Under the pieces are notes generated by a model, which ran no database searches, was not told the origin of the DNA, and worked only from the letters and a program-made list of their open reading frames with translations. This document shows positions 9,851 to 52,669 of a DNA stretch of 52,669 nt, piece after piece. Where the stretch lies: assembly GCA_019247695.1 (NCBI GenBank), contig JAFBAP010000100.1:1-52669 (forward strand), in the 5' to 3' direction. Origin of the DNA: Verrucomicrobiota bacterium. Its GTDB lineage: Bacteria; Verrucomicrobiota; Verrucomicrobiia; Chthoniobacterales; JAFAMB01. How positions within the stretch are numbered: the first letter of the stretch is position 1; each line of letters opens with the position of its first letter. A program made the position numbers and the translations under genes.

Positions 9851-10663
9851 ATGGGGACGCTCTGGCGCAAGTACGGCAAGGTGTTCGAGATCGGGCTGCA
9901 GAACACCTTTGTCTATCGTTGGAACTTTTTCTTACGCGCCTGTTTCGGCCTGTTTCCGCTGGTCGGAACGGTATTTGTCTGGGGAGCCATTTTCGAGGCC
10001 AAGGGTTCCGGCATCAACAACTTCGACTATGGCTCGGTCGTCTTTTATTTTCTTCTGGTCATCGCCCTGGACAGCCTGATCACGCCGACGGATGACGAAT
10101 GGCAGGTCGCACGCGACATCCGCGACGGGATGATCAACAACTTCCTGGTCAAACCGGTCAATTACCTCGTTTTCCGGTTCTGCCTGTTCGCCAGTAACCG
10201 GATTCTCTACACGATTGTGACCATCCCGGTCCTGTTCGGGATCTTTTTTTTCTTCCGCCGTTATCTGCAGTGGCCAAGCCACCCGGAAGTATGGCTTTGC
10301 AGCAGCATCAGCGTGGTGATGGCAGCGCTGCTTCAATTCCTGATATCGTTTTGCGTCGCGATGATAGCATTCTGGATGCTGGAGATCTCGACGCTGGTTC
10401 TGATCCTTTACTCGTTTGAGTACTTCCTCAGCGGGCACCTTTTCCCGTTGGGGTTGTTGCCGGTATGGATTCAGCGCTTGCTGGCGTGGTCGCCGTTCCC
10501 ATACGAGTTGTATTTCCCGATCGCGATTTTCCAGCAGAAGGTAACAGGTCCGGCCATTTACCAGGGACTCGCGTTGCAAGCGGCCTGGACGTCGATCATG
10601 GCGGTGGCCGCGAACGCGCTCTGGTACCGGGGTCTGCATAAGTACCAGGCTGTTGGAGGGTAA
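9851..10663 (+). CDS. ABC-2 type transporter permease
   Basis: A 270-residue integral membrane protein with about six hydrophobic segments, resembling the ABC-2 family permeases that usually occur as a pair plus an ATPase. Recognisable features are the N-terminal YRWNFFLRACFGLFPLVGTV region, the DDEWQVARDIRDGMINNFLVKP cytoplasmic loop (typical of this permease group) and a C-terminal SPFPYELYFP segment. Neither the partner permease nor an ATPase is next to it; the operon stops at a repeat block. The stop codon TAA (10661-10663) is itself part of the first GGGTAAC repeat unit. The transported substrate is unknown. Confidence 0.82.
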   Translation: MGTLWRKYGKVFEIGLQNTFVYRWNFFLRACFGLFPLVGTVFVWGAIFEAKGSGINNFDYGSVVFYFLLVIALDSLITPTDDEWQVARDIRDGMINNFLVKPVNYLVFRFCLFASNRILYTIVTIPVLFGIFFFFRRYLQWPSHPEVWLCSSISVVMAALLQFLISFCVAMIAFWMLEISTLVLILYSFEYFLSGHLFPLGLLPVWIQRLLAWSPFPYELYFPIAIFQQKVTGPAIYQGLALQAAWTSIMAVAANALWYRGLHKYQAVGG

Positions 10664-10720
10664 CGCGTAACGGGTAACGGGTAACGGGTAACGGGTAACG
10701 GGTAACGGGTAGCGGGTGAG
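10658..10720. repeat. Heptamer tandem array (GGGTAAC), nine units
   Basis: Nine head-to-tail 7-bp units run from 10658: GGGTAAC, GCGTAAC, five exact GGGTAAC, then GGGTAGC and GGGTGAG. The first unit contains the stop codon of the upstream permease gene. The last unit overlaps the left arm of the long palindrome. Confidence 0.9.
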
Positions 10721-11037
10721 CGGCCACGGCGGCTGGGGCGGGCACAACGACGGAGTTCACACGGCGAACACGGCGGACCACGGCGAACACGGCGGGAAGA
10801 TCAAATCATCCGCAGAACACGCAGAAAAGAGATAAACCATCCACAGATTACGCAGATTACACAGATTCAAGGCATCTGAATCCCTGCTGCGTGTTTCTGG
10901 ACGCCCTTCTCTGCGTTCATTTGCGTGTTCTGCGGATGATTTGATCTTCCCGCCGTGTTCGCCGTGTTCGCCGTGGCCCGCCGTGTTCGCCGTGTGAACT
11001 CCGTCGTTGTGCCCGCCCCAGCCGCCGTGGCCGCTCA
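10717..11037. repeat. 321-bp imperfect palindrome between convergent genes
   Basis: The left arm 10717-10823 (107 bp) is the reverse complement of the right arm 10922-11037 (116 bp). The outer 60 bp match perfectly; the only differences are one base and a 9-bp extra copy of aacacggcg in the right arm. The centre holds atccacagattacgcagatt-type and tctgcgtt modules. The right arm ends on the last base of the rodA stop codon (11035-11037). It may act as a bidirectional transcription stop or be a mobile repeat; no protein is convincingly encoded. Confidence 0.85.
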
Positions 11038-12177
11038 GCTCTGGACGACGACGGGACGGCGGTGGATCCAGATACTCTGCACAATGCCGAGCCCGAAAAA
11101 GATCAGGACCAGGAATGAGCCGCCGTAGCTGATCAAAGGCAGCGGAACGCCGGTGATCGGCGTCACGGAAATGTTCATCCCGATGTTCATGAAGACGTGG
11201 GTGAACATGAGGGCGACGAGTCCCACACAAACGAGCCGGCCGAGCTCATCAGGGGCACACGCGGCGATCAGAAGGCCGGTCAGGAAAAGCACCGCAAAGG
11301 CAATGAGGAGCGTTACGCCGCCCACAAAGCCCAGTTGTTCGGCGATGGCCGAGAAGATAAAGTCGGTGTGGACGATGGTGGACGGCAGAAAGCCCATCTG
11401 CACCTGGGTGTTCGGCGCCGTAAACCCTTTACCGTAAAAGCCGCCCGAGCCGATGGCGATGAGGGCCTGGTTGATGGTCCAGGCGGCGCCTTGCTGGTCG
11501 TAGTCCGGGTTGATAAACGTCGTCAGACGATCGCGCTGGTACGGTTTCAGACCGAAGTTTGCCACCACCGGGACCAGGGCAACGGCGACGATGATCATGA
11601 CGATCAAGTACCGCTTTGGAATCCGGCCGATAAAGAGAAGGGCCATGATCATGGGCAATTGAACGAGGCATTCACCCAGGTCGGGCTGGATCAGGATCAA
11701 GAGAAACGGGGGCGCAACGATCGCGCCGCAACTCAGGATGCGCCCCACCGTAGGCCAGAACCCGACCCAATCGGAAGTGTTGGCAATGAGCCAGGAGAGC
11801 AGCAGCAGCATCGAGACGATGGCGAGCTGGGCGGGTTGAAAGCTGATCGGGCCGAGGTCCAGCCAGCTTTTTGCCCCGTAAGTCGTACGGCCGATGAAGT
11901 GGGTCAGGATCAAAAACCCGAGTCCCCCCAGGTACATGATGAGGGGAAAGATAATGTTGTAAAGCCAGCTCCGGTAATCGACCAGCGAGGTGATGAAGTA
12001 CAGGGCGATGCCGATTGCGAGGAAAACCGCCTGGCGACGCCACATTTCGACGAGGTAGCCTTCCGCGCGCATGTACGTGGCGCTGTAAATGGCCATGATA
12101 CCAAAGATGCCCAAGGCGATCGCCAGGACCGTGAGCAGCCAGTTCATCCCGATAAGCTTGCGAAGGAAGAGATTCAT
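11035..12177 (-). CDS. rodA: Rod shape-determining SEDS glycosyltransferase
   Basis: A 380-residue polytopic SEDS protein that polymerises lipid II glycan during cell elongation with a class B PBP partner. It has the family's YSATY start region, GAKSWLDLGPISFQPAQLA, IHTDFIFSAIAEQLGFVGG-type segment with the catalytic Asp (HTDFIF), and NIGMNISVTPITGVPLPLIS. The ATG at 12177 gives MNLFLRKLIGMNWLL; the frame is open further upstream but overlaps the preceding gene. The start is 31 bp after the OppF-like gene in the same direction. mreBCD and the PBP2 gene are not in view. Confidence 0.95.
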   Translation of the reverse strand: MNLFLRKLIGMNWLLTVLAIALGIFGIMAIYSATYMRAEGYLVEMWRRQAVFLAIGIALYFITSLVDYRSWLYNIIFPLIMYLGGLGFLILTHFIGRTTYGAKSWLDLGPISFQPAQLAIVSMLLLLSWLIANTSDWVGFWPTVGRILSCGAIVAPPFLLILIQPDLGECLVQLPMIMALLFIGRIPKRYLIVMIIVAVALVPVVANFGLKPYQRDRLTTFINPDYDQQGAAWTINQALIAIGSGGFYGKGFTAPNTQVQMGFLPSTIVHTDFIFSAIAEQLGFVGGVTLLIAFAVLFLTGLLIAACAPDELGRLVCVGLVALMFTHVFMNIGMNISVTPITGVPLPLISYGGSFLVLIFFGLGIVQSIWIHRRPVVVQS

Positions 12178-14522: not shown

Positions 14523-15623
14523 ATGAAGATCGGTCTTCCCAAAGAGATCAAGGAGCAGGAGCATCGGGTCGCGATGCTGCCGTCCGTTGTGTACGGTCTG
14601 GTGAAGCTCGGGCACGAAGTTTTTGTCGAACGCAATGCGGGCATCGGTTCAGGCTATCCGGACGAGGAGTATGAACGTGCCGGCGGCACCCTGGTCCCGG
14701 ACCATGAGGAAGCTTTTCAACGGGCGGACCTGGTGGTCAAGGTCAAGGAGCCGCTGCCGCCGGAGTACCCGTTGCTGCGTCCGGGGCAGATCCTCTTTAC
14801 CTACCTTCATCTGGCGGCCAATAAACCTTTAACGGAGGCCCTGCTCCGGTCCGGCGTGACGGCGGTGGCCTATGAGACGGTGGAGGTTAATCGCCGTCTG
14901 CCTTTGCTGGAGCCGATGAGTGAGATTGCGGGGCGCATGTCGATCATCGTCGGGGGTTACTTCCTGGCCAAACACAACGGAGGTAAAGGCGTGCTGCTGG
15001 GAGGGGTTCCGGGCGTGCTGCCCGGCAACGTGGTGGTCATCGGCGGCGGCACCTCCGGCGTGAACGCGGCGAGGATGGCGACGGGGCTGGGCGCAGAGGT
15101 GACGATTCTGGAAGTTGACGTGGAACGCATGCGCTTCCTCGACATCACGATGCATACGGCGCACACGTTGTATTCGAACGAGGCGCACTTGCTGGAGATG
15201 CTGCCGCGCACGGATCTGCTGATCGGCGCGGTGCTCGTTCCCGGGGCGCGCGCGCCGCAGTTGATCACGCGGAAAATGTTGCGACTGATGAAGCCGGGAA
15301 GCGTGCTCGTGGACATTGCGATTGATCAGGGAGGCTGCTGCGAAACGTCCCGGGCTACCACGCACCATGATCCGGTTTACGTCGAGGAAGGTGTGATCCA
15401 CTATTGTGTCGCCAACATGCCTGGGGCGTACGCACGGACGGCAACCCAGGCCCTGACCAATGTGACCGCGCGTTACCTGGAGTTCATCGCGGAAAGCGGC
15501 CTGGAAGGCGCGATCCGCAAACTGCCCGGGCTGCGCCAAGGCATCAATATCATGGATGGCAAGCTCTCCAATCAGGCGGTGGCGACCGCGCATGGGTTAC
15601 CATTTACGCCCGTACCGATTTGA
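14523..15623 (+). CDS. ald: Alanine dehydrogenase
   Basis: NAD-dependent reversible oxidation of L-alanine to pyruvate and ammonium. The 366 residues show [27 protein letters not shown] (substrate Lys), FTYLHLA (catalytic His), the Rossmann motif VVIGGGTSG and [16 protein letters not shown]. The C-terminus VATAHGLPF is typical. Its TGA overlaps the next ATG (TGATG), so the acetyltransferase is translationally coupled to it. Confidence 0.96.
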
Positions 15624-16372
15624 TGCTGCGACCGAACGACGTGCCGCGCAGGCTCGACACCGCGATCCCCGGCCTGCAGCTTGTACCGCTCGCCGACGGC
15701 GACGCCGAGGAGTTATTTGCGCTGACCGCAGCGAACCGGGCTCACCTCCAGCGCTGGCTGCCGTGGGTCAACGATGTTCGTTGCGTGGCTGACTCATCGA
15801 TGCATGTCCGCAACGGGCTTGAACTGCGACGGCTGGGTCTGAGGCTGGATTATACGATCCGGCTGCACGGCCGCGTGATCGGCACCATTGCTTACCACGT
15901 TCTGCAGCCCGCCAATCGGCTCGGGATGATCGGCTACTGGCTGGCGCAGGACGCAACCGGCCACGGCTACATGACCACAGCCGTCCGGCATCTGGTTGAA
16001 TACGGGTTCGTTGATCTGGCCCTGAACCGGATCGAGTTGCGGGTCGCCGTCGGCAATTGCGCCAGCCAGAAAATCTGTACCCGCCTCGGGTTCAAGGAGG
16101 AGGGGGTGTTACGGGAAGCGGAATGGCTCCACGATCATTTTGTGGATCTGCGGGTAAATGCGCTGCTGCGGTCGGAATGGGAACGGGGGACCGGTCGAGT
16201 GCCGGGGCAAATGCCACAAATGCCACAAGCGGAAAATGCCACAAATGGAAGAGGGGAGAATCACACGGCGCCACGGCGGAACACGGCGAGCCACGGCGGG
16301 AAGATTAAATCATCCGCAGAACACGCAGAACAACGCAGAAAAGAGAAAACATCCACAGATTACACAGATTGA
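15623..16372 (+). CDS. GNAT N-acetyltransferase (RimJ/RimL-like) with repeat-encoded C-terminal tail
   Basis: A 249-residue protein. Residues about 1-190 form a GNAT domain: TIRLHGRVIGTIAYH, the acetyl-CoA loop QDATGHGYMTTAVRHL, and NCASQKICTRLGFKEEGVLRE. RimJ/RimL relatives end near this point (LLRSEWERG). The remaining roughly 60 residues are encoded by interspersed repeat DNA (modules A, B, C and D) and are Asn/His/Lys-rich low-complexity sequence with no fold I recognise. The start ATG overlaps the ald stop. The substrate is unknown; the tail probably reflects loss of the original stop codon when the repeat arrived. Confidence 0.85.
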   Translation: MLRPNDVPRRLDTAIPGLQLVPLADGDAEELFALTAANRAHLQRWLPWVNDVRCVADSSMHVRNGLELRRLGLRLDYTIRLHGRVIGTIAYHVLQPANRLGMIGYWLAQDATGHGYMTTAVRHLVEYGFVDLALNRIELRVAVGNCASQKICTRLGFKEEGVLREAEWLHDHFVDLRVNALLRSEWERGTGRVPGQMPQMPQAENATNGRGENHTAPRRNTASHGGKIKSSAEHAEQRRKEKTSTDYTD

Positions 16373-16557: not shown

Positions 16558-16655
16558 CACCCGACACCCGACACCCGACACCCGACACCCGACACCCGAC
16601 ACTCGTTACCCGTTGCCCGTTACCCGTTACCCGTTACCCGTTACCCGTTACCCGC
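16558..16655. repeat. Heptamer array of two unit types in one phase, 14 units
   Basis: Six CACCCGA units, one CACTCGT junction unit, then TACCCGT/TGCCCGT units ending in TACCCGC. All 14 units keep the same 7-bp phase although the unit sequence switches. On the minus strand these read TCGGGTG and ACGGGTA, the same units as the arrays at 21886 and 10658. Confidence 0.9.
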
Positions 16656-16684: not shown

Positions 16685-16712
16685 CTCCGAACTCCGAGCT
16701 CCGAACCCCGAA
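16685..16712. repeat. Heptamer array (CTCCGAA), four units, abutting the serA stop
   Basis: Units CTCCGAA, CTCCGAG, CTCCGAA and CCCCGAA end exactly where the serA stop codon (CTA on the plus strand, 16713-16715) begins. Read on the coding strand of serA, the stop TAG is followed directly by TTCGGGG TTCGGAG units. Confidence 0.85.
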
Positions 16713-18305
16713 CTAGAGCCTGACCACCTTGGCGGACTTGATGCTGGGGTTCTTCAAGATGGAACCAAGCACGTCCGCAGAGGGAGAGGAATCAAGGTTC
16801 AGGACCGTCAGGGCCTCGCCGCCGACGTGATCGCGGCTCAACGACATGTTGGCGATGTTGATCTGCGAGGAGCCGAGCAACGTCCCGATCTGGCCGACGA
16901 TTCCCGGCACGTCCTGGTTTTCCAGGATCAGCAGCACCCCGTTGGGCCGGGCTTCCACGTGCCGGTGATTTACCATGACGATGCGCGGTGAGGCGCCGAT
17001 AAATGTGCCGGCAACGGAGACGCGTTCGGCTCCCGAGCGAGCCTGCGCCTCGACGAGGTCGGTGAATTCGCCGGTGGCAGTCTCGCGAGTTTCGATCACC
17101 TTCAACCCAAGCGTTTGGGCCAAGGCGGTCACGTTCACCTCATTGACGTCCTGGCCGCCCGCCTCTTCAAGGAAACCCCGGAGCAGGCTGCGCGAGATCG
17201 GTGTGGTCTCGACGTCGTTTACCTTGCCGCTGTAATTGATGGCGAGTTCGTCGCAACGTTTAGGCGCGATCTGGCGCAATAACTTTCCTAACTTGCGACC
17301 GAAATCGAGGTACGGCCGGATGAGCGTCAGCGTCTTGGCATCAATATTCGGGACATTGACGGCATTCCGGATCACGCCCTCGAGGAGCACCGATCGGATG
17401 GCCTCTGCGATTTCGATGCCGACGCTTTCCTGGGCCTCAACGGTGGACGCCCCGAGATGGGGCGTGAACACGATGTTCGGGAGTTGAAGCAACGGCAAGC
17501 CGGGCGGAGGCGGTTCCACTTCAAAGACGTCGAAGGCCGCCGCGGCGACGTGGCCGGACTTCAGGGCATCGTAAAGGGCGGTTTCATCAATCAGGCCGCC
17601 GCGCGCGCAGTTGACGACGCGCGCACCCCGTTTCAGGCTGGCGAGGCGGCTGGCGTCAAGCAAATGCCGCGTTTCGGCCGACAACGGCATGTGCAGGGTC
17701 ACAAAGTCCGCCTGGGCCAGCACGTCCTCCAGCTCGTCGTAGAGCTCGACCTGCAGCGAGCGGGCGCGGCTCGGGGAGAGATACGGATCGTAGGCGACCG
17801 GGCGCATCCCGAAGGCGATGGCGCGGCGGGCGATCTCGGTACCGATCCGGCCCATGCCGAGGATTGCGATCGTCTTGCCGTTAAGCTCGACGCCTTCGAA
17901 AGATTTACGGTCCCATTTACCGGCCTTAACGCTGGCATCCGCCTGGGGGATGTTCCGCGCAATCGACACAAGCAGCGAAAACGCGTGTTCAGCGGTGGAA
18001 ATGGTGTTTCCACCGGGTGTATTCATGACGATGATGCCCGCGCGGGTGGCAGCGTCCACGTCGACGTTGTCAACTCCCACGCCGGCGCGCCCGACCACTT
18101 TAAGGGCCTTGGCTGCCGCCAGAACGCGCGCCGTCACCTTTGTCTGCGACCGGACAACCAGACCGGCGTAAGATCCGATGATCTCGACCAGGGCGTCTTC
18201 TTTGAGGCCGGTCTTGACATCGACCTCCAGTTCACCCCTGCCTTTCAGCGCCTGTATGCCTCGCGGGGAAACAGCGTCGGCCACGAGGACTTTGGGATTA
18301 ACCAT
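16713..18305 (-). CDS. serA: D-3-phosphoglycerate dehydrogenase
   Basis: First enzyme of serine synthesis, NAD-dependent oxidation of 3-phosphoglycerate. The 530 residues are the long form: catalytic and NAD-binding domains (about 1-310) with GMGRIGTEIARR, NCARGGLIDE (Arg), FDVFEVEP (Glu) and FTPHLGAST (His); an ASB domain (about 320-450); and a C-terminal ACT domain (about 455-530) for serine feedback. Its ATG lies inside the end of shc (8-base overlap), so it is translationally coupled to a hopanoid gene. The stop is followed immediately by a heptamer repeat. Confidence 0.96.
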   Translation of the reverse strand: MVNPKVLVADAVSPRGIQALKGRGELEVDVKTGLKEDALVEIIGSYAGLVVRSQTKVTARVLAAAKALKVVGRAGVGVDNVDVDAATRAGIIVMNTPGGNTISTAEHAFSLLVSIARNIPQADASVKAGKWDRKSFEGVELNGKTIAILGMGRIGTEIARRAIAFGMRPVAYDPYLSPSRARSLQVELYDELEDVLAQADFVTLHMPLSAETRHLLDASRLASLKRGARVVNCARGGLIDETALYDALKSGHVAAAAFDVFEVEPPPPGLPLLQLPNIVFTPHLGASTVEAQESVGIEIAEAIRSVLLEGVIRNAVNVPNIDAKTLTLIRPYLDFGRKLGKLLRQIAPKRCDELAINYSGKVNDVETTPISRSLLRGFLEEAGGQDVNEVNVTALAQTLGLKVIETRETATGEFTDLVEAQARSGAERVSVAGTFIGASPRIVMVNHRHVEARPNGVLLILENQDVPGIVGQIGTLLGSSQINIANMSLSRDHVGGEALTVLNLDSSPSADVLGSILKNPSIKSAKVVRL

Positions 18306-21885: not shown

Positions 21886-21920
21886 GGTGCCGGGTGCCGG
21901 GTGTCGGGTGTCGGGTGTTG
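21886..21920. repeat. Heptamer array (GGTGCCG/GGTGTCG), five units
   Basis: Units GGTGCCG twice, GGTGTCG twice, GGTGTTG once, in the 508-bp gap between the divergent hpnH and the anion ABC permease. I see no credible gene in this gap; a 73-codon frame at 21901-22122 starts inside the array and is not convincing. Confidence 0.8.
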
Positions 21921-22138
21921 GGCGAGGGCGATGGGAAATATGGAATTCCAGCTGTATTCCAGGGGGGTGATCCAGGAATTCGGGCGTGAGCGGCCGATTT
22001 GCGAGTGGATTCCTCCTTACGCGGATGCGGGGTTTTGCGACGGGACGATGATCGCCAAGCGAGCGTTGCTCAGCCGGCCGGGCATCCGGAAAGACTTGCG
22101 CCGCGCATACTCTCGGCCTTAGGAAGAGGCGGCGCGCC

Positions 22139-40559: not shown

Positions 40560-41000
40560 CACGATCACAGCGGAGCAGAATCACACGGCGCCACGGCGGA
40601 CCACGGCGACCACGGCGGGAAGAGGGGAAAGCGTTCGGAGTTCGGAGTTCGGGGTTCGGTCACACGGCGGGCACAGCGGGTGTGGCGGGCACGACGTAAG
40701 GGTTCACACGGCGAACACGGCGGGAAGAGGGGAAAGCGTTCGGAGTTCGGGGTTCGGAGTTCGGAGCGGCGTTATGGGGGTGGGTGCGAGTGTCAGCCTT
40801 GGAGTTGCCGCCGGGTCGTCTTCATCTGTGTCAATCTGTGTGATCTGTGGATGTTTCCTCTTTTCTGCGTGTTCCGCGGAGAATTCGGTCTTCCCACTGT
40901 GCTCCGCCGGACGATTGGATGCGGTGACACGACGTCTCTGAACTCCGAACTCCGAACCCCGAGCGCCGAACGCTTTCCTCTTCCGCCGTGCCCGCCGTGC
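40560..41000. repeat. Composite interspersed repeat with three heptamer arrays
   Basis: A 35-bp segment (cacggcgggaagagg... to ttcggagttcgg) occurs twice in direct orientation, at 40611 and 40716, with a 105-bp period. Each copy ends in TTCGGAG units (40634-40654, three units; 40739-40766, four units). Inverted modules follow: caatctgtgtgatctgtgg (about 40830-40850), tctgcgtgttccgcgg (about 40864-40880), then five CTCCGAA-type units (40936-40970) and cgccgtgcccgccgtg. The block separates the divergent nirA-like and PEPCK-like genes; 40255-40560 holds no credible gene. Confidence 0.75.
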
Positions 41001-44000: not shown

Positions 44001-44453
44001 CTTCAGGACCTCGCTGTTTTCGCCGACGGAATGGAAAACATTATTGCCACGCAAAGACGCGTCGCGCAAAGTTACTTTGATGATGGCAGTATCGCGTCGG
44101 CCTGCCCGCCATTGCGAGCGCTTTTGCACCTCATGGTGCACGAGCAGTTCGAAGGCAAGGATCTCGCTCACCCCGAGATTCGCGCGCTTTTCACCCGTGA
44201 CGGCATGCTCGCGAGCGGTTGGTACGCCGAGCGGCTTTCCGCCAAACAGAAGGTCAATGCCCGTCTGTGGGCTCGCCACGTGCACACGTTGGAAACGTTC
44301 ATGGCTAAATCGAACTACAGCGATGAAGCGGCCCGGCTTCGGATCGATGACCGCCTGGAACGGGCACGCAAAACCCTGGACGCGATTCGTGCGCCGGAAT
44401 ACGAAAAGTCGTTGCGCGGAACCATCGGTGTGCAACCGCTAAACCCTGCATGA
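41046..44453 (+). CDS. Putative pyrophosphate-type phosphoenolpyruvate carboxykinase
   Basis: A 1135-residue soluble protein without obvious signal or membrane segments. Its length fits the PPi-dependent PEPCKs known from Entamoeba and Propionibacterium (about 1100-1150 residues). The segment at residues 322-346 (GYCKKEVKTQLSYSANLL...EEEH) resembles the metal-site segment of GTP-PEPCK: Lys326 and His346 are 20 residues apart, exactly the K244-H264 spacing of the rat enzyme as I remember it. The nucleotide P-loop of GTP-PEPCK (FPSACGKTN) is not conserved; the similar place reads FPSYDLGEK, as expected if pyrophosphate replaces the nucleotide. It overlaps a phosphofructokinase gene by ATGA. ATG 41046 is chosen because the open frame upstream is repeat DNA. 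Confidence 0.72.
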   Translation: MSQTLNPPDQKLIRYINLKLAALGCPTVETGDGAEFKEMAALLAHQREVHRLLANYLPPADNRIQTFLYDYLQDAPLAKLPSRTFVLDRPGLARALSLAPGNDEFKSDLLHSYRLSQGVLHNPKSDRRTTQGTFHIAEGGLPVPDDKVAVPKRAFGRLLQLALTPPPAMLQLPFTSAQAQRAECFVSLLLRPVVCPAVPGVTTEKTMEIRFFAPGGLVSNLDFVESIFGNGGDPFLPENDAGLDPEHWTGHSGCVILAPHLTQVRKKDLGLPSWEAATERQRRDGVCWRDAAELYNNGVAFKLTCRDESGVIVTIIADNYFGYCKKEVKTQLSYSANLLGLCEEEHAGGALVFPSYDLGEKFSGDLHVVRSGHTYGEMVSLYSDLMDVRPEGFAVDKRFPDIIYVREDVCFDLHAQSVSWTHEGASHSIKLLPGRTYVRPSGYKVQMVKPPGGRAWRLIGTVAEGTLCHKPCTVSGGGKSEISKPIGDAILQGPVFVADFHKDFDRVAELINRNYGGRFRAGRKRPASRPILSPERSLGSVIKLLTPAPDEYTDEYSAWLDSIPQYIKELVFVVKRFYRPEWGDTWREHFSVDVINGVPAHELKCNDRKLVANFLRVGYNPDGSWRTFGLRKDFYPAAKVPLEDDITASVVVAAGQLQGLNPEYRQPSVKFVKNTEQRLFQRPDDAIHPGYDKQTECDFAQPGNFFSNYEPLARADAIRLVEDAITFDRFTGSMQELIRRAADAGNGAYFVSSAHPRIVEGKPSKNPRYLQCRQDLANPRDAYLAEAGTRLRRRIPLRKPVYAPVNAVLPGRRNNPPEGPIRPLAVFNPIHYLELPELFMEFICSMTGKSPSTTGVGSEGALTKGPFNALPPIIDLNAALVSYLLTGDAVFVTAAGYAGPHFRVDHDVSLLVPEIWSRMAVAERDPRFLIDGGYLEKCSDFVYSGRTVRASLLGYRITKRFVAAFFGRVFNHPDAVLTETMLRPELQDLAVFADGMENIIATQRRVAQSYFDDGSIASACPPLRALLHLMVHEQFEGKDLAHPEIRALFTRDGMLASGWYAERLSAKQKVNARLWARHVHTLETFMAKSNYSDEAARLRIDDRLERARKTLDAIRAPEYEKSLRGTIGVQPLNPA

Positions 44454-45841
44454 AGCGCATCGCGATTCTTACCGCCGGTGGTGACACGCCCGCCTTAAAC
44501 CCGACCATCCACGGCGCGGTGGTGCGGGCAAACCAGTTAAAAGTCGAAATCTTCGGACTGATCAAAGGGTTTAACAGCCTGTTCAATCCGCGCCTGCCGC
44601 ACGTGCATCTTAACCCGCTATTTCACGAAATCCCGGAGCTGGACCCAACCAAAGGGGGGACGCTCGTCGGTTCGTCACGGGATTTCGTGGATCCGGACAA
44701 GAAGGACGACCTCGACTGCGCCGTGGCGCGGCTCGGGAAGCTTGGCATCGAAGGCCTGATCTGCGTCGGCGGGGACGGCACGCTCAACGGCCTGCAGCCG
44801 ATCGCCGATCGGCTGCCTACCGTGCTCGCGCCGAAGACGATCGACAATGACCTTGGCCTGAATTACCCGAGCGAACCCGATGAGATGATTCGCGTGAACG
44901 ATCCGAGCGGCAAAGGGTTCCAGTACAAACGCAGCGGTTCAGAGGCGGTGTTCGCGCTCGACCAGCTCGTTAATTACTGCACCCCGGGGTACGCCACCGC
45001 CGTTTATGTTTCCGCCAACGGCGTCGAGCGCGTCCGTACGACCGCCGAGAGCCACCGGCGCATCGCGATCATCGAAGTCATGGGCCGCCACTCCGGCTAT
45101 ATCGCCCTCGGCACGGCGTACGGGCGGCCGGACCTCATCCTGGTGCCCGAACACCCGCTCGAACTTGAACGCCTGGTTGAACGGGTAAAACAGCTCTACG
45201 ATCTTCAGAAAAACGTCGTGATCGTCTGCGGCGAAGGCATCGTGGACGAGCAGGGGCGTGAACTCGGGGCCGAAACCAAGACCACCGATCCGGCCGGCAA
45301 TATCCAGCTCAGCGGCGCTGCGGAAGCGCTGCGGGCAAAACTGATCCAGTTGATCGGCGATAAGTATTTCCAGCTTTACCGTCGCGCGCAGTCGGCGCGG
45401 GAGGCGATCTTTACCCGGAAAGTGGGGCACAGCCAGCGCGGCGGAAGACCGATCCTGTTTGACCGCTTCTACGCCGCACAACTCGGCGCAAAAGCCGTTG
45501 AACTGCTGCTCGAAGGGCGCAACAACGCCGTTTCGATTCTCCAGTACAGCCCGAGCCAGGGTTTCCAGGTGGACGGGTTCGACGCCAATCGTTTCCGCGA
45601 CCGCTGGGGCCATACCCACGCCCGGCGCATGCACCCGGACCTGTACGATCCGCTGCGGATGAAACCATCACGCCTCGGCATCGATTATCTGACGCCCATC
45701 TTCACCGATGCCATCGGCTACGACGATATGGAGTACCAGCGCACCACGCTTTTCGCACAGGCAAATCTTACCCAGCCTTATCACTCGGTTAATACCGACG
45801 TTAACAAGCGGATTCGTTACCTCGCGCCGGACATCGGGTAA
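44450..45841 (+). CDS. 6-phosphofructokinase, possibly pyrophosphate-dependent
   Basis: A 463-residue PFK-A family enzyme. Landmarks: TAGGDTPALN, GGDGTLNGL (Gly110), PKTIDNDLG (Lys129, catalytic Asp132), EVMGRHSGYIALGTAYG, and VGHSQRGGRP. Position 124 in E. coli numbering is Lys, as in PPi-dependent enzymes, whereas position 104 is Gly, as in ATP-dependent ones; this Gly/Lys mix leaves the phosphate donor undecided. The ATG overlaps the stop of the putative PPi-PEPCK, an argument for PPi. The stop TAA is inside a GGGTAAC repeat unit (IGTKRIRYLAPDIG-like C-terminus ends APDIG). Confidence 0.9.
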   Translation: MKRIAILTAGGDTPALNPTIHGAVVRANQLKVEIFGLIKGFNSLFNPRLPHVHLNPLFHEIPELDPTKGGTLVGSSRDFVDPDKKDDLDCAVARLGKLGIEGLICVGGDGTLNGLQPIADRLPTVLAPKTIDNDLGLNYPSEPDEMIRVNDPSGKGFQYKRSGSEAVFALDQLVNYCTPGYATAVYVSANGVERVRTTAESHRRIAIIEVMGRHSGYIALGTAYGRPDLILVPEHPLELERLVERVKQLYDLQKNVVIVCGEGIVDEQGRELGAETKTTDPAGNIQLSGAAEALRAKLIQLIGDKYFQLYRRAQSAREAIFTRKVGHSQRGGRPILFDRFYAAQLGAKAVELLLEGRNNAVSILQYSPSQGFQVDGFDANRFRDRWGHTHARRMHPDLYDPLRMKPSRLGIDYLTPIFTDAIGYDDMEYQRTTLFAQANLTQPYHSVNTDVNKRIRYLAPDIG

Positions 45842-45960
45842 CGGGTAACGGGGGCGATGGTGGAGGGAGGGGCCACCCATGAGAAGGCTATGATTTCTCG
45901 TCCCGTCGTGGCCGCGTCTCGCGCGGGGCCTGACGCCAGTAACCCGTTACCCGTTACCCG
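45835..45960. repeat. Inverted heptamer arrays between convergent genes
   Basis: The left arm 45835-45852 (two GGGTAAC units plus flank) is a perfect 18-bp reverse complement of the right arm 45943-45960 (part of three GTTACCC-type units, 45939-45959). The left array contains the phosphofructokinase stop codon; the right array lies nine bases from the araD stop. Transcripts from both sides could fold into a hairpin with a 90-base loop, so it may act as a bidirectional 3' end signal. Confidence 0.8.
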
Positions 45961-45968
45961 ACACGGAG

Positions 45969-46664
45969 TCACGCCTGGCCGTAGTAGGCGGCGGCGCCAT
46001 GCTTGCGCAGGAAATGCTTGTCGAGCAATGCCTGGGGAATGGGCGGGGCATTCGGATTAAGTTGGAGCGCCTTCATCGCCATCTCGGCGATGACCTCCAG
46101 CGCCAAAGCGTTTTCAACGGCTTTTTTACCGCTTGGGCCCCAGGCGAACGGCCCGTGGCTTTGGACGAGCACCGCGCAGATCTGCGTCGGGTCCAGATCC
46201 TTGAAACGCTCGACGATGACGTTGCCGGTCTCCCATTCGTAGGCGGACTCAATTTCCTGCGGGGTCATCATGCGCGTCACCGGCACGCTGCCGTAGAAAT
46301 AATCGGCATGCGTCGTCCCGAAACAGGGGATTTCCCGACCGGCTTGCGCGAAGGCGACGGCATTGCGCGAATGGGTATGCACCACTGCGCGAATGCCTTG
46401 AAACGCCTGGAATAAACGGCGATGGGTCGGGGTATCGGAGGAGGGACGCAACGACCCCTCCACGATCCGGCCGCCATAGTCCACGATCACCATGTCGTTT
46501 GATTGCAGGACGCTATAGTCAACGCCGCTGGGTTTAATCGCGAAAACCCCGCGCGCGGGATCGGCCACGCTGACGTTGCCGAACGTCAGGTCGATCAACC
46601 TGTGTTCCGGCAGCAGCAGGTTGGCCTCGTAACACTCTTCCTTGATCTCACGATAGCTGCTCAT
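45969..46664 (-). CDS. araD: L-ribulose-5-phosphate 4-epimerase
   Basis: A 231-residue class II aldolase-fold enzyme that turns L-ribulose 5-phosphate into D-xylulose 5-phosphate. Metal and catalytic motifs are present: TFGNVSVAD, IKPSGVDY, VVHTHSRNAVAFAQ (two zinc His), FGTTHADYF and SHGPFAWG (third His). It lies 71 bp downstream of araA on the same strand. The kinase that should feed it is only a remnant here. Confidence 0.95.
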   Translation of the reverse strand: MSSYREIKEECYEANLLLPEHRLIDLTFGNVSVADPARGVFAIKPSGVDYSVLQSNDMVIVDYGGRIVEGSLRPSSDTPTHRRLFQAFQGIRAVVHTHSRNAVAFAQAGREIPCFGTTHADYFYGSVPVTRMMTPQEIESAYEWETGNVIVERFKDLDPTQICAVLVQSHGPFAWGPSGKKAVENALALEVIAEMAMKALQLNPNAPPIPQALLDKHFLRKHGAAAYYGQA

Positions 46665-51513: not shown

Positions 51514-52524
51514 ATGAAGAAGGAACTCGGCATTACCATCCTGTTGGTTGTCCTTTGTGTAGTGGTGGCGGTATTGAACCCGCGATTTCTGGGTGCTTCC
51601 AACCTCACCAACATGGCCCGGCTGATCGGGATATACGGCATTTTCAGCATCGGCATGGGCTTGGTGATCATCACCAGCGGCATTGACCTGTCGGTGGGAT
51701 CAGTCTTCGCGATCCAGGGCGTGATTTTAGCCATCATGCTGCGCGAGTGGAACCTGCCGTGGCCCGTGGCGGTTTTGTTGGTCATCGCCGGCGTCGTTCT
51801 CCTGGGAATCCTGCATGGCTGGTTCATCGCCTACATCCGCATGCAGCCCTTCATCGTCACCCTGTGCGGTCTGCTCTTTTACCGCGGCCTGGCCCGCTTC
51901 ATCGCCAATGACGAAACCAAGGGTTTCGGCAGCACGGGCTTTGAGTTGCTGCGTCACCTGGCGACGGGCAGCGTCGGGCCCGTGCCGATGCCGTTCGTAC
52001 TGCTGATCATTATCGGCATCATCAGTTATGTCGTTCTTCACCGGTCAGTGTTCGGGCGTTACCTCTATGCCGTCGGGCGAAACGAGGACGCCGCCCGGTA
52101 TTCCGGCATTAATAGCCGGATGATCATTTTGAGCACCTACGCAGTCGAAATGCTGCTGGTCGCGATCGCGGGTATTCTCATCGCTTTCTACACCAATTCG
52201 ATCTCGCCCGCCAACCATGGCCAATCGTATGAGCTTTATGCCATCGCGGCGGCCGTGCTCGGAGGCTGCAGCCTGCGCGGCGGTGAAGGGTCCATCATCG
52301 GAATCATCATCGGCACGGCGCTCCTGCAGGTGCTGCAAAACCTGGTCAACCTGCTGGGTATACCGAGTTCCCTGAATTTCGCAGTGATGGGGGCGGTTAT
52401 CTTCCTGGGCGTGCTGGTGGATCAGATCTCGGGCCAGCGTAAGAAGAAGCAACAGGTTCTCGCCCGGGCGCCTGCAGCCACGACGCCTGCCGCTCCGACC
52501 ACGCCAACCCAGGCCGCACGGTAG
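51514..52524 (+). CDS. Sugar ABC transporter permease (RbsC/AraH type)
   Basis: A 336-residue polytopic membrane protein of the branched-chain/ribose permease family. Family landmarks are GMGLVIITSGIDLSVGS, PFIVTLCGLLFYRGLA, GRYLYAVGRNEDAARYSGI, SPANHGQSYELYAIAAAVLG and GGEGSIIGIIIG. The C-terminus after the last helix is a basic stretch (QRKKKQQ) and an Ala/Pro/Thr-rich tail not usual for the family. The TAG at 52522 is followed by a heptamer array after five bases. Confidence 0.95.
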   Translation: MKKELGITILLVVLCVVVAVLNPRFLGASNLTNMARLIGIYGIFSIGMGLVIITSGIDLSVGSVFAIQGVILAIMLREWNLPWPVAVLLVIAGVVLLGILHGWFIAYIRMQPFIVTLCGLLFYRGLARFIANDETKGFGSTGFELLRHLATGSVGPVPMPFVLLIIIGIISYVVLHRSVFGRYLYAVGRNEDAARYSGINSRMIILSTYAVEMLLVAIAGILIAFYTNSISPANHGQSYELYAIAAAVLGGCSLRGGEGSIIGIIIGTALLQVLQNLVNLLGIPSSLNFAVMGAVIFLGVLVDQISGQRKKKQQVLARAPAATTPAAPTTPTQAAR

Positions 52525-52529
52525 CGGGA

Positions 52530-52641
52530 TTCGGAGTTCGGAGTTCGGAGTTCGGAGTTCGGAGTGCGGAGTTCGGAGTGCGGAATTCGGAGTTCGGAGT
52601 TCGGAGTTCGGAGTTCGGAGTTCGGAGTTCGGAGTTCGGAG
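52530..52641. repeat. Heptamer tandem array (TTCGGAG), 16 units
   Basis: Sixteen contiguous 7-bp units; 14 are exactly TTCGGAG, one is TGCGGAG and one TGCGGAA. It begins five bases after the permease stop codon and is the longest array of this unit in the window. It is the same unit as at 40634-40654, 40739-40766 and, inverted, 16685-16712 and 40936-40970. Confidence 0.92.
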
Positions 52642-52669
52642 TGGCATCATGGGTACCGCCTGTCGGTGT

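Follow-up and report, generated by a model that had tools for sequence, protein, structure and literature searches.

REP/BIME sequences, which occur with RAYT (Y1) transposases, are dispersed intergenic inverted repeats that often lie near gene 3' ends, and the Foldback (FB) elements of Drosophila have inverted arms made of short tandem repeats. Tandem heptamers of the forms GGGAATC and GGGGA(C/T)T are present in Xanthomonas and Nostoc, where they lie on the coding strand downstream of ORFs and on the non-coding strand upstream (Rehm et al., 2015, PMC4692102), and TAACTGA heptamers of marine Beggiatoaceae mostly precede start codons by a few nucleotides (MacGregor, 2015, PMC4679880).

Here we describe heptamer arrays of a Verrucomicrobiota bacterium, both in the window (the whole 52,669-nt stretch of contig C100 that was analysed) and in a larger sample of the same genome. 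They share with the repeats of Xanthomonas and Nostoc a tandem unit of seven, a mostly intergenic position and the same strand placement relative to the flanking genes. Runs of at least three G, of the kind compatible with G-quadruplexes, occur in GGGTAAC and GGGTGTC and are absent from TTCGGAG, the commonest array in our sample. The arrays differ from those of Xanthomonas and Nostoc in that the words themselves are different, that several heptamers occur together with words of 9-10 nt under one polarity per gap, and that the effect of a stop codon inside the unit was tested here. Like the TAACTGA repeats, whose unit holds both TAA and TGA, they are abundant intergenic heptamer arrays; however, the Beggiatoaceae repeats lie near start codons whereas the arrays described here are enriched at stops. 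REP/BIME units are palindromes of 20-40 bp, whereas the units here are of 7-10 nt and non-palindromic, and the two Y1 transposase genes that were found are not flanked by the repeats, no module being present across loci of 2.4-3.1 kb. Inverted terminal arms of the kind found in MITE and foldback elements are present in 41 gaps, some of them from other repeat families, yet unlike Drosophila FB the tracts have no defined mobile unit or element ends. The placement of such arrays was already known (Rehm et al., 2015); measured against the open-licence literature, what is added here is a multi-word architecture with a single switch of orientation and a unit-specific effect of the stop codon.

Materials and Methods

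The draft genome comprises 5.19 Mb in 191 contigs. We read 1.89 Mb of it (36%) in 121 stretches, most of which are contig starts and four of which were picked for their arrays, and called 1618 genes in this sample with a home-made hexamer model trained on long ORFs. Arrays were defined as exact repeats of at least three units. For proximity to stops, the null distribution was obtained by placing each array uniformly within its own gap (1000 draws). The 'plus' direction of each word was fixed by majority, i.e., with one free choice per word; since one such choice per word cannot produce consistency, the strand consistency across words is not an artefact of this rule. Orthologous gene ends were readable for a few genes only, and in the comparison with G001, the one other genome of this genus among the relatives that were searched, which covered 16 orthologues in 178 kb, an array lay near the stop in one of the 16. 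Heptamer arrays were also seen at the start or end of many contigs (G000 C1, C4, C5, C17, C18, and C41); arrays therefore break the assembly, and longer ones are probably under-counted.

Abundance and Polarity of the Arrays

Exact arrays of period 7 are almost the sole intergenic tandem repeats in the sample. We found 132 of them in intergenic gaps and 5 in coding sequence, and periods 5, 6, and 8-15 gave 0-3 intergenic arrays in the same 1.89 Mb. Three consecutive copies of TTCGGAG occur 673 times in this genome, never in G001 and twice in each of two family members; for GGGTAAC the corresponding counts are 240 here, 25 in G001 and none in 55 family and order relatives. These counts indicate that the expansion was recent and species-specific.

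The preliminary description of the window had reported four stops in or beside heptamer units, and all four were found as described (Table 1). The ABC-2 type permease ORF ends GGAGGG-TAA, its TAA (10661-10663) lying within a GGGTAAC unit of an array in register; the phosphofructokinase (PFK) ORF (44450-45841) ends ATCGGG-TAA, again with the TAA of a GGGTAAC unit, inside CGGGTAACGGGTAAC; the serA stop (TAG, complement of 16713-16715) overlaps a CTCCGAA array by 2 nt; and the sugar-permease stop (52522-52524) stands five bases from the TTCGGAG array at 52530-52642.

Table 1. Repeat arrays, inverted arms and an adjoining gene in the window.
Feature	Position	Strand	Remarks
ABC-2 type permease gene	9851..10663	+	C-terminus ...KYQAVGG*; QAVGG/EAVGG end kept in relatives
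GGGTAAC array, 8.6 units	10658..10717	+	Unit 1 holds the ABC-2 permease TAA; G-rich strand runs from gene to gap
Left arm of 78-nt inverted repeat, 99% identical	10717..10794	+	Starts TGAGCGGCCACGG right after the heptamer array
Right arm of 78-nt inverted repeat	10960..11037	-	Opens with TGA, the stop of gene 11035-12177 (minus)
CACCCGA array (GGGTGTC type, minus strand)	16558..16602	-	Directed away from serA
CGTTACC array (GGGTAAC, minus strand)	16604..16654	-	Directed away from serA
CTCCGAA array (TTCGGAG, minus strand)	16685..16714	-	Adjoins serA stop TAG
GGTGTCG array	21886..21922	+	Divergent gap
TTCGGAG array	40633..40659	+	Divergent gap, left half
TTCGGAG array	40738..40766	+	Left part of the gap holding 40633-40659; inverted partner 40943-40981
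CTCCGAA array	40936..40971	-	Right part of the gap, head-to-head with 40633-40659 and 40738-40766
Short GGGTAAC array	45835..45852	+	Holds PFK stop TAA 45839-45841
GTTACCC array	45942..45960	-	Faces 45835-45852; 8 nt from stop of convergent gene 45969-46664
TTCGGAG array, 16 units	52530..52642	+	Five bases 3' of sugar-permease stop

The stronger pattern in the sample is polarity rather than the targeting of stop codons. Arrays whose nearest gene end was a 3' end were in sense orientation in 64 cases and antisense in 7, while those nearest a 5' end were antisense in 42 and sense in 4. Codirectional gaps gave the same result within a single gap, with 32 sense arrays to 1 in the two fifths beside the stop and 32 antisense arrays to 0 in the far three fifths. 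When eight words were considered, 97 gaps contained both orientations and one of these had the reversed order. With the chosen stretches and the window left out, the nearest-gene rule gave 91 arrays directed inward and 8 outward. The longer words CACGGCGAA, CGCAGAACA, CACAGATTA, ATGCCACAAATG, and GTAAGAGTTC obey the polarity of the heptamers, and at 3' and 5' ends alike the 5'→3' direction of heptamers and partner words leads from the flanking gene to mid-gap; gaps without modules have little comparable base skew. The arrays thus form the outer modules of inverted tracts that lie between genes and are limited by them, and it follows from the polarity rule that TTCGGAG arrays, too, are found beside genes. 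The direction of transcription or of replication was considered as the cause and was ruled out, since the polarity flips inside one gap whatever the orientations of the genes. That unrelated words share a single switch strongly limits the ways in which bacterial intergenic repeats can form, and the pattern agrees with one that was reported for Xanthomonas and Nostoc and left unexplained.

Repeats downstream of genes might be retained as functional structures, i.e., as G-quadruplexes or terminator elements under selection. GGGTAAC and GGGTGTC have a G3N4 spacing, and quadruplex formation has been shown for similar heptamers (Rehm et al., 2015). However, TTCGGAG has only G2 runs, arrays in the far half of codirectional gaps are antisense to both genes, and an Rfam search of the window returned no match, and we regard selection for such structures as a highly improbable explanation of the arrays.

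Stop Codons at the Edges of the Tracts

The preliminary description held that the position of arrays near stops was too consistent for random insertion and expected enrichment there throughout the genome. Both points were borne out on the 1.89 Mb that we read. Gaps with a 3' end contained 99 arrays, of which 19 touched or overlapped that end, about twice the number expected under uniform placement (8.4 ± 2.5) and a value matched in none of the 1000 draws, and 49 lay at most 30 nt from it (25.7 ± 3.6 expected). At 5' ends there was no excess (2 observed, 4.8 expected). When orientation and half-gap were allowed for, the 3'-end excess proved to be limited to stop-bearing units: GTAA-like units touched 3' ends in 12 cases (5.2 ± 1.9 expected) and lay at most 10 nt from them in 16 (7.5 ± 2.0 expected), whereas no excess at 3' ends was seen for TTCGGAG-like (AGTT-like) arrays (4 vs. 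3.9) or for GGGTGTC (GTGT) and other arrays (1 vs. 3.1). The same correction left no unit in excess at 5' ends.

Arrays that overran the ORF by at least 7 nt showed the same dependence on the unit, being 11 of 34 among stop-bearing arrays and 0 of 56 among stop-free ones (p = 7e-6), and overlaps in the gap-placed set reached 21 nt at most. A frame table of the units accounts for this confinement. Read in sense, GGGTAAC brings each of the three frames to a TAA in at most 21 nt, while its reverse strand and the other units (TTCGGAG and GGGTGTC) contain no stop in any frame.

Relatives of the genes concerned help to establish which stops preceded the arrays. In the ABC-2 permease, the stop falls at the identical residue (...AVGG*) in the nine relatives with a match (53-93% identity), array-free ones included, and the array-free orthologue in G009 has the gene end GGAGGGTAA with no array behind it. 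These alignments show, in one clear case, that the stop is ancestral and was not supplied by the array, and that the gene probably ended in GGGTA(A/G) before the array arrived. Close support comes from a second case, EF-P (L114, array at -4), where seven relatives align to the last residue (1-175/175) and the match to TIGR00038 extends to the end of the model (184/184), which points to an ancestral stop position there as well. PFK is equally long in G001 but has different last codons (GTGAGC TGA in G001, ATCGGG TAA in this genome), and its stop is probably ancestral too, adjoined or overprinted in register by the array. The suggestion that arrays supply the stop applies to a minority of cases, i.e., about 11 overruns of at least 7 nt, three of them with relatives that end earlier. 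In these three (L124, L130, and L155, each with an array 19 nt inside the ORF), the alignments of relatives mostly end ~10-20 residues before the stop of this genome, and judging from these alignment ends they look like run-on ORFs caught by an array TAA. In the window, a GNAT-like gene (15623-16372) runs ~50-65 residues into ATGCCAC, CACGGCG, CGCAGAACA, and CACAGATTA words, and its stop TAA, past the homologous region, comes from a CACAGATTAA word.

Considering these gene ends, we return to the proposal of the preliminary description that arrays arise at, or insert into, gene 3' ends in a targeted way, perhaps supplying the stop; the gene's own terminal TAA or GGGTAA would then seed the arrays. 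The excess of GTAA-like arrays at stops agrees with such an origin, as does the probable pre-array end of the ABC-2 permease. The stop was also in register with the unit in 19 of the 25 arrays that start at most 10 nt from it, but this figure is partly automatic, since any overrun of an ORF end by an array necessarily terminates the ORF in register. Most of the evidence does not fit, however: TTCGGAG and GGGTGTC arrays have no excess at stops, the layout at 5' ends is the mirror image of that at 3' ends, and TAA is not significantly over-used at stops adjoining GTAA arrays (-6 to +10 nt; 5 of 13 vs. 27%, p = 0.36), which makes the seeding or short-homology part weak. The enrichment at 3' ends thus stands, and targeted origin at stop codons seems to us unlikely.

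Proposed Growth of Inverted Tracts up to Gene Ends

We consider it probable, on balance, that the arrays belong to inverted tracts for which the genetic code acts as a filter at gene ends. Each module, whether a heptamer or a longer word, reads 5'→3' from the gene to mid-gap, where the orientation switches once. Tracts would grow or be copied until coding sequence is met, and their edges would gather at the ends of genes. The packing would be tighter at 3' ends, since 5' ends need promoters and ribosome sites. Whether the last codons could be crossed would depend on the word: an overrun by GGGTAAC would cost at most a few residues, whereas TTCGGAG and GGGTGTC, having no stop, would lengthen the protein, so that their crossing would be filtered out. 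Selection would then be the filter, letting a word cross a gene end only if it carries a stop of its own. Stops inside units would be ancestral ones that were adjoined or overprinted in register (as in the ABC-2 permease, EF-P, and probably PFK) and, less often, would have been taken from the array after the ORF end was overrun. The model yields a testable rule: a tract would grow to the point at which the genetic code halts it, stop-containing words eating into gene ends and others being unable to do so.

The tracts may spread by slippage and template-switch copying, with stop trinucleotides serving as short homologies, and the gap at 10664-11034 offers one example. It contains inverted 78-nt arms of 99% identity, of which the left follows the heptamers at the junction of ...GGG and TGAGCGGCC, and the right begins at TGA, the stop of the next gene, which is conserved in G001 (...CCAGAGCTGA). 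As far as sequence can tell, these arms are one clear case of the pattern expected from template-switch copying off a 3-nt match. A broader proposition, that copying directed inward from 3' ends fills the gaps from short homologies (e.g., stop trinucleotides) and recruits many unrelated words in one polarity, we think rather doubtful; were it true, and were the pattern in Xanthomonas and Nostoc governed by the same rule, bacterial intergenic repeats would have a general and undescribed route of growth.

The origin of the polarity itself could lie in the repair of breaks, broken 3' ends within gaps being lengthened with other arrays as the template, in a telomere-like manner or by template switching, and then joined. 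Both sides would thereby receive inward G-rich strands, which would give the polarity rule directly. The strict single-switch orientation, the nearly identical arms that start from a shared TGA, and the recent species-specific expansion of words such as TTCGGAG are in keeping with this. However, break-end extension predicts that a lone array may lie in either half of a gap, whereas inward arrays were observed in the near half, and no dedicated enzyme was seen; we hold it as a tentative possibility. About equally tentative is an origin in a foldback or MITE-like mobile element: a non-autonomous element would insert into gaps, the inward arms being its terminal inverted repeats and single arms its decayed copies. 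The partly fixed order of words from gene to centre, the unique spacer words common to tracts, and the number of gaps with inverted arms favour such an element, but left and right arms often have different words, and the Y1 transposase loci are without modules.

A reverse-transcriptase domain (G000:C164:16892-17523) is split in two, contains a TAG and looks broken. As the engine of the repeats, a Y1 transposase or a reverse transcriptase is unsupported, the Y1 loci containing no modules and this single reverse-transcriptase stretch being broken-looking.

Other Repeats and Other Genomes

The inverted-tract reading was drawn from this genome, and some repeats depart from its polarity rule. The dispersed repeats TTAGGCCCAACGGGC, TAGCCCAGGGTTTACCC, and CGTCCCGCAGGGACG (L087 5251-6500, L143, L079, and L083) follow the rule weakly or not at all and are probably a separate family. 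At 37 loci with GGGTAAC arrays from mixed taxa, where most arrays stand alone and genes were called roughly, 14 were inward and 8 outward, the rest lying inside ORFs or at contig edges; the polarity there is weak, and we claim no generality from these loci. A layout that resembles the inward, inverted one described here, with other words (ATGACAGATGACAAAT... and CGCAGATTTACGCGGATA...), is seen in family members of another genus, 3' of the ABC-2 orthologue in L194 and in L196 and 3' of PFK in L201.
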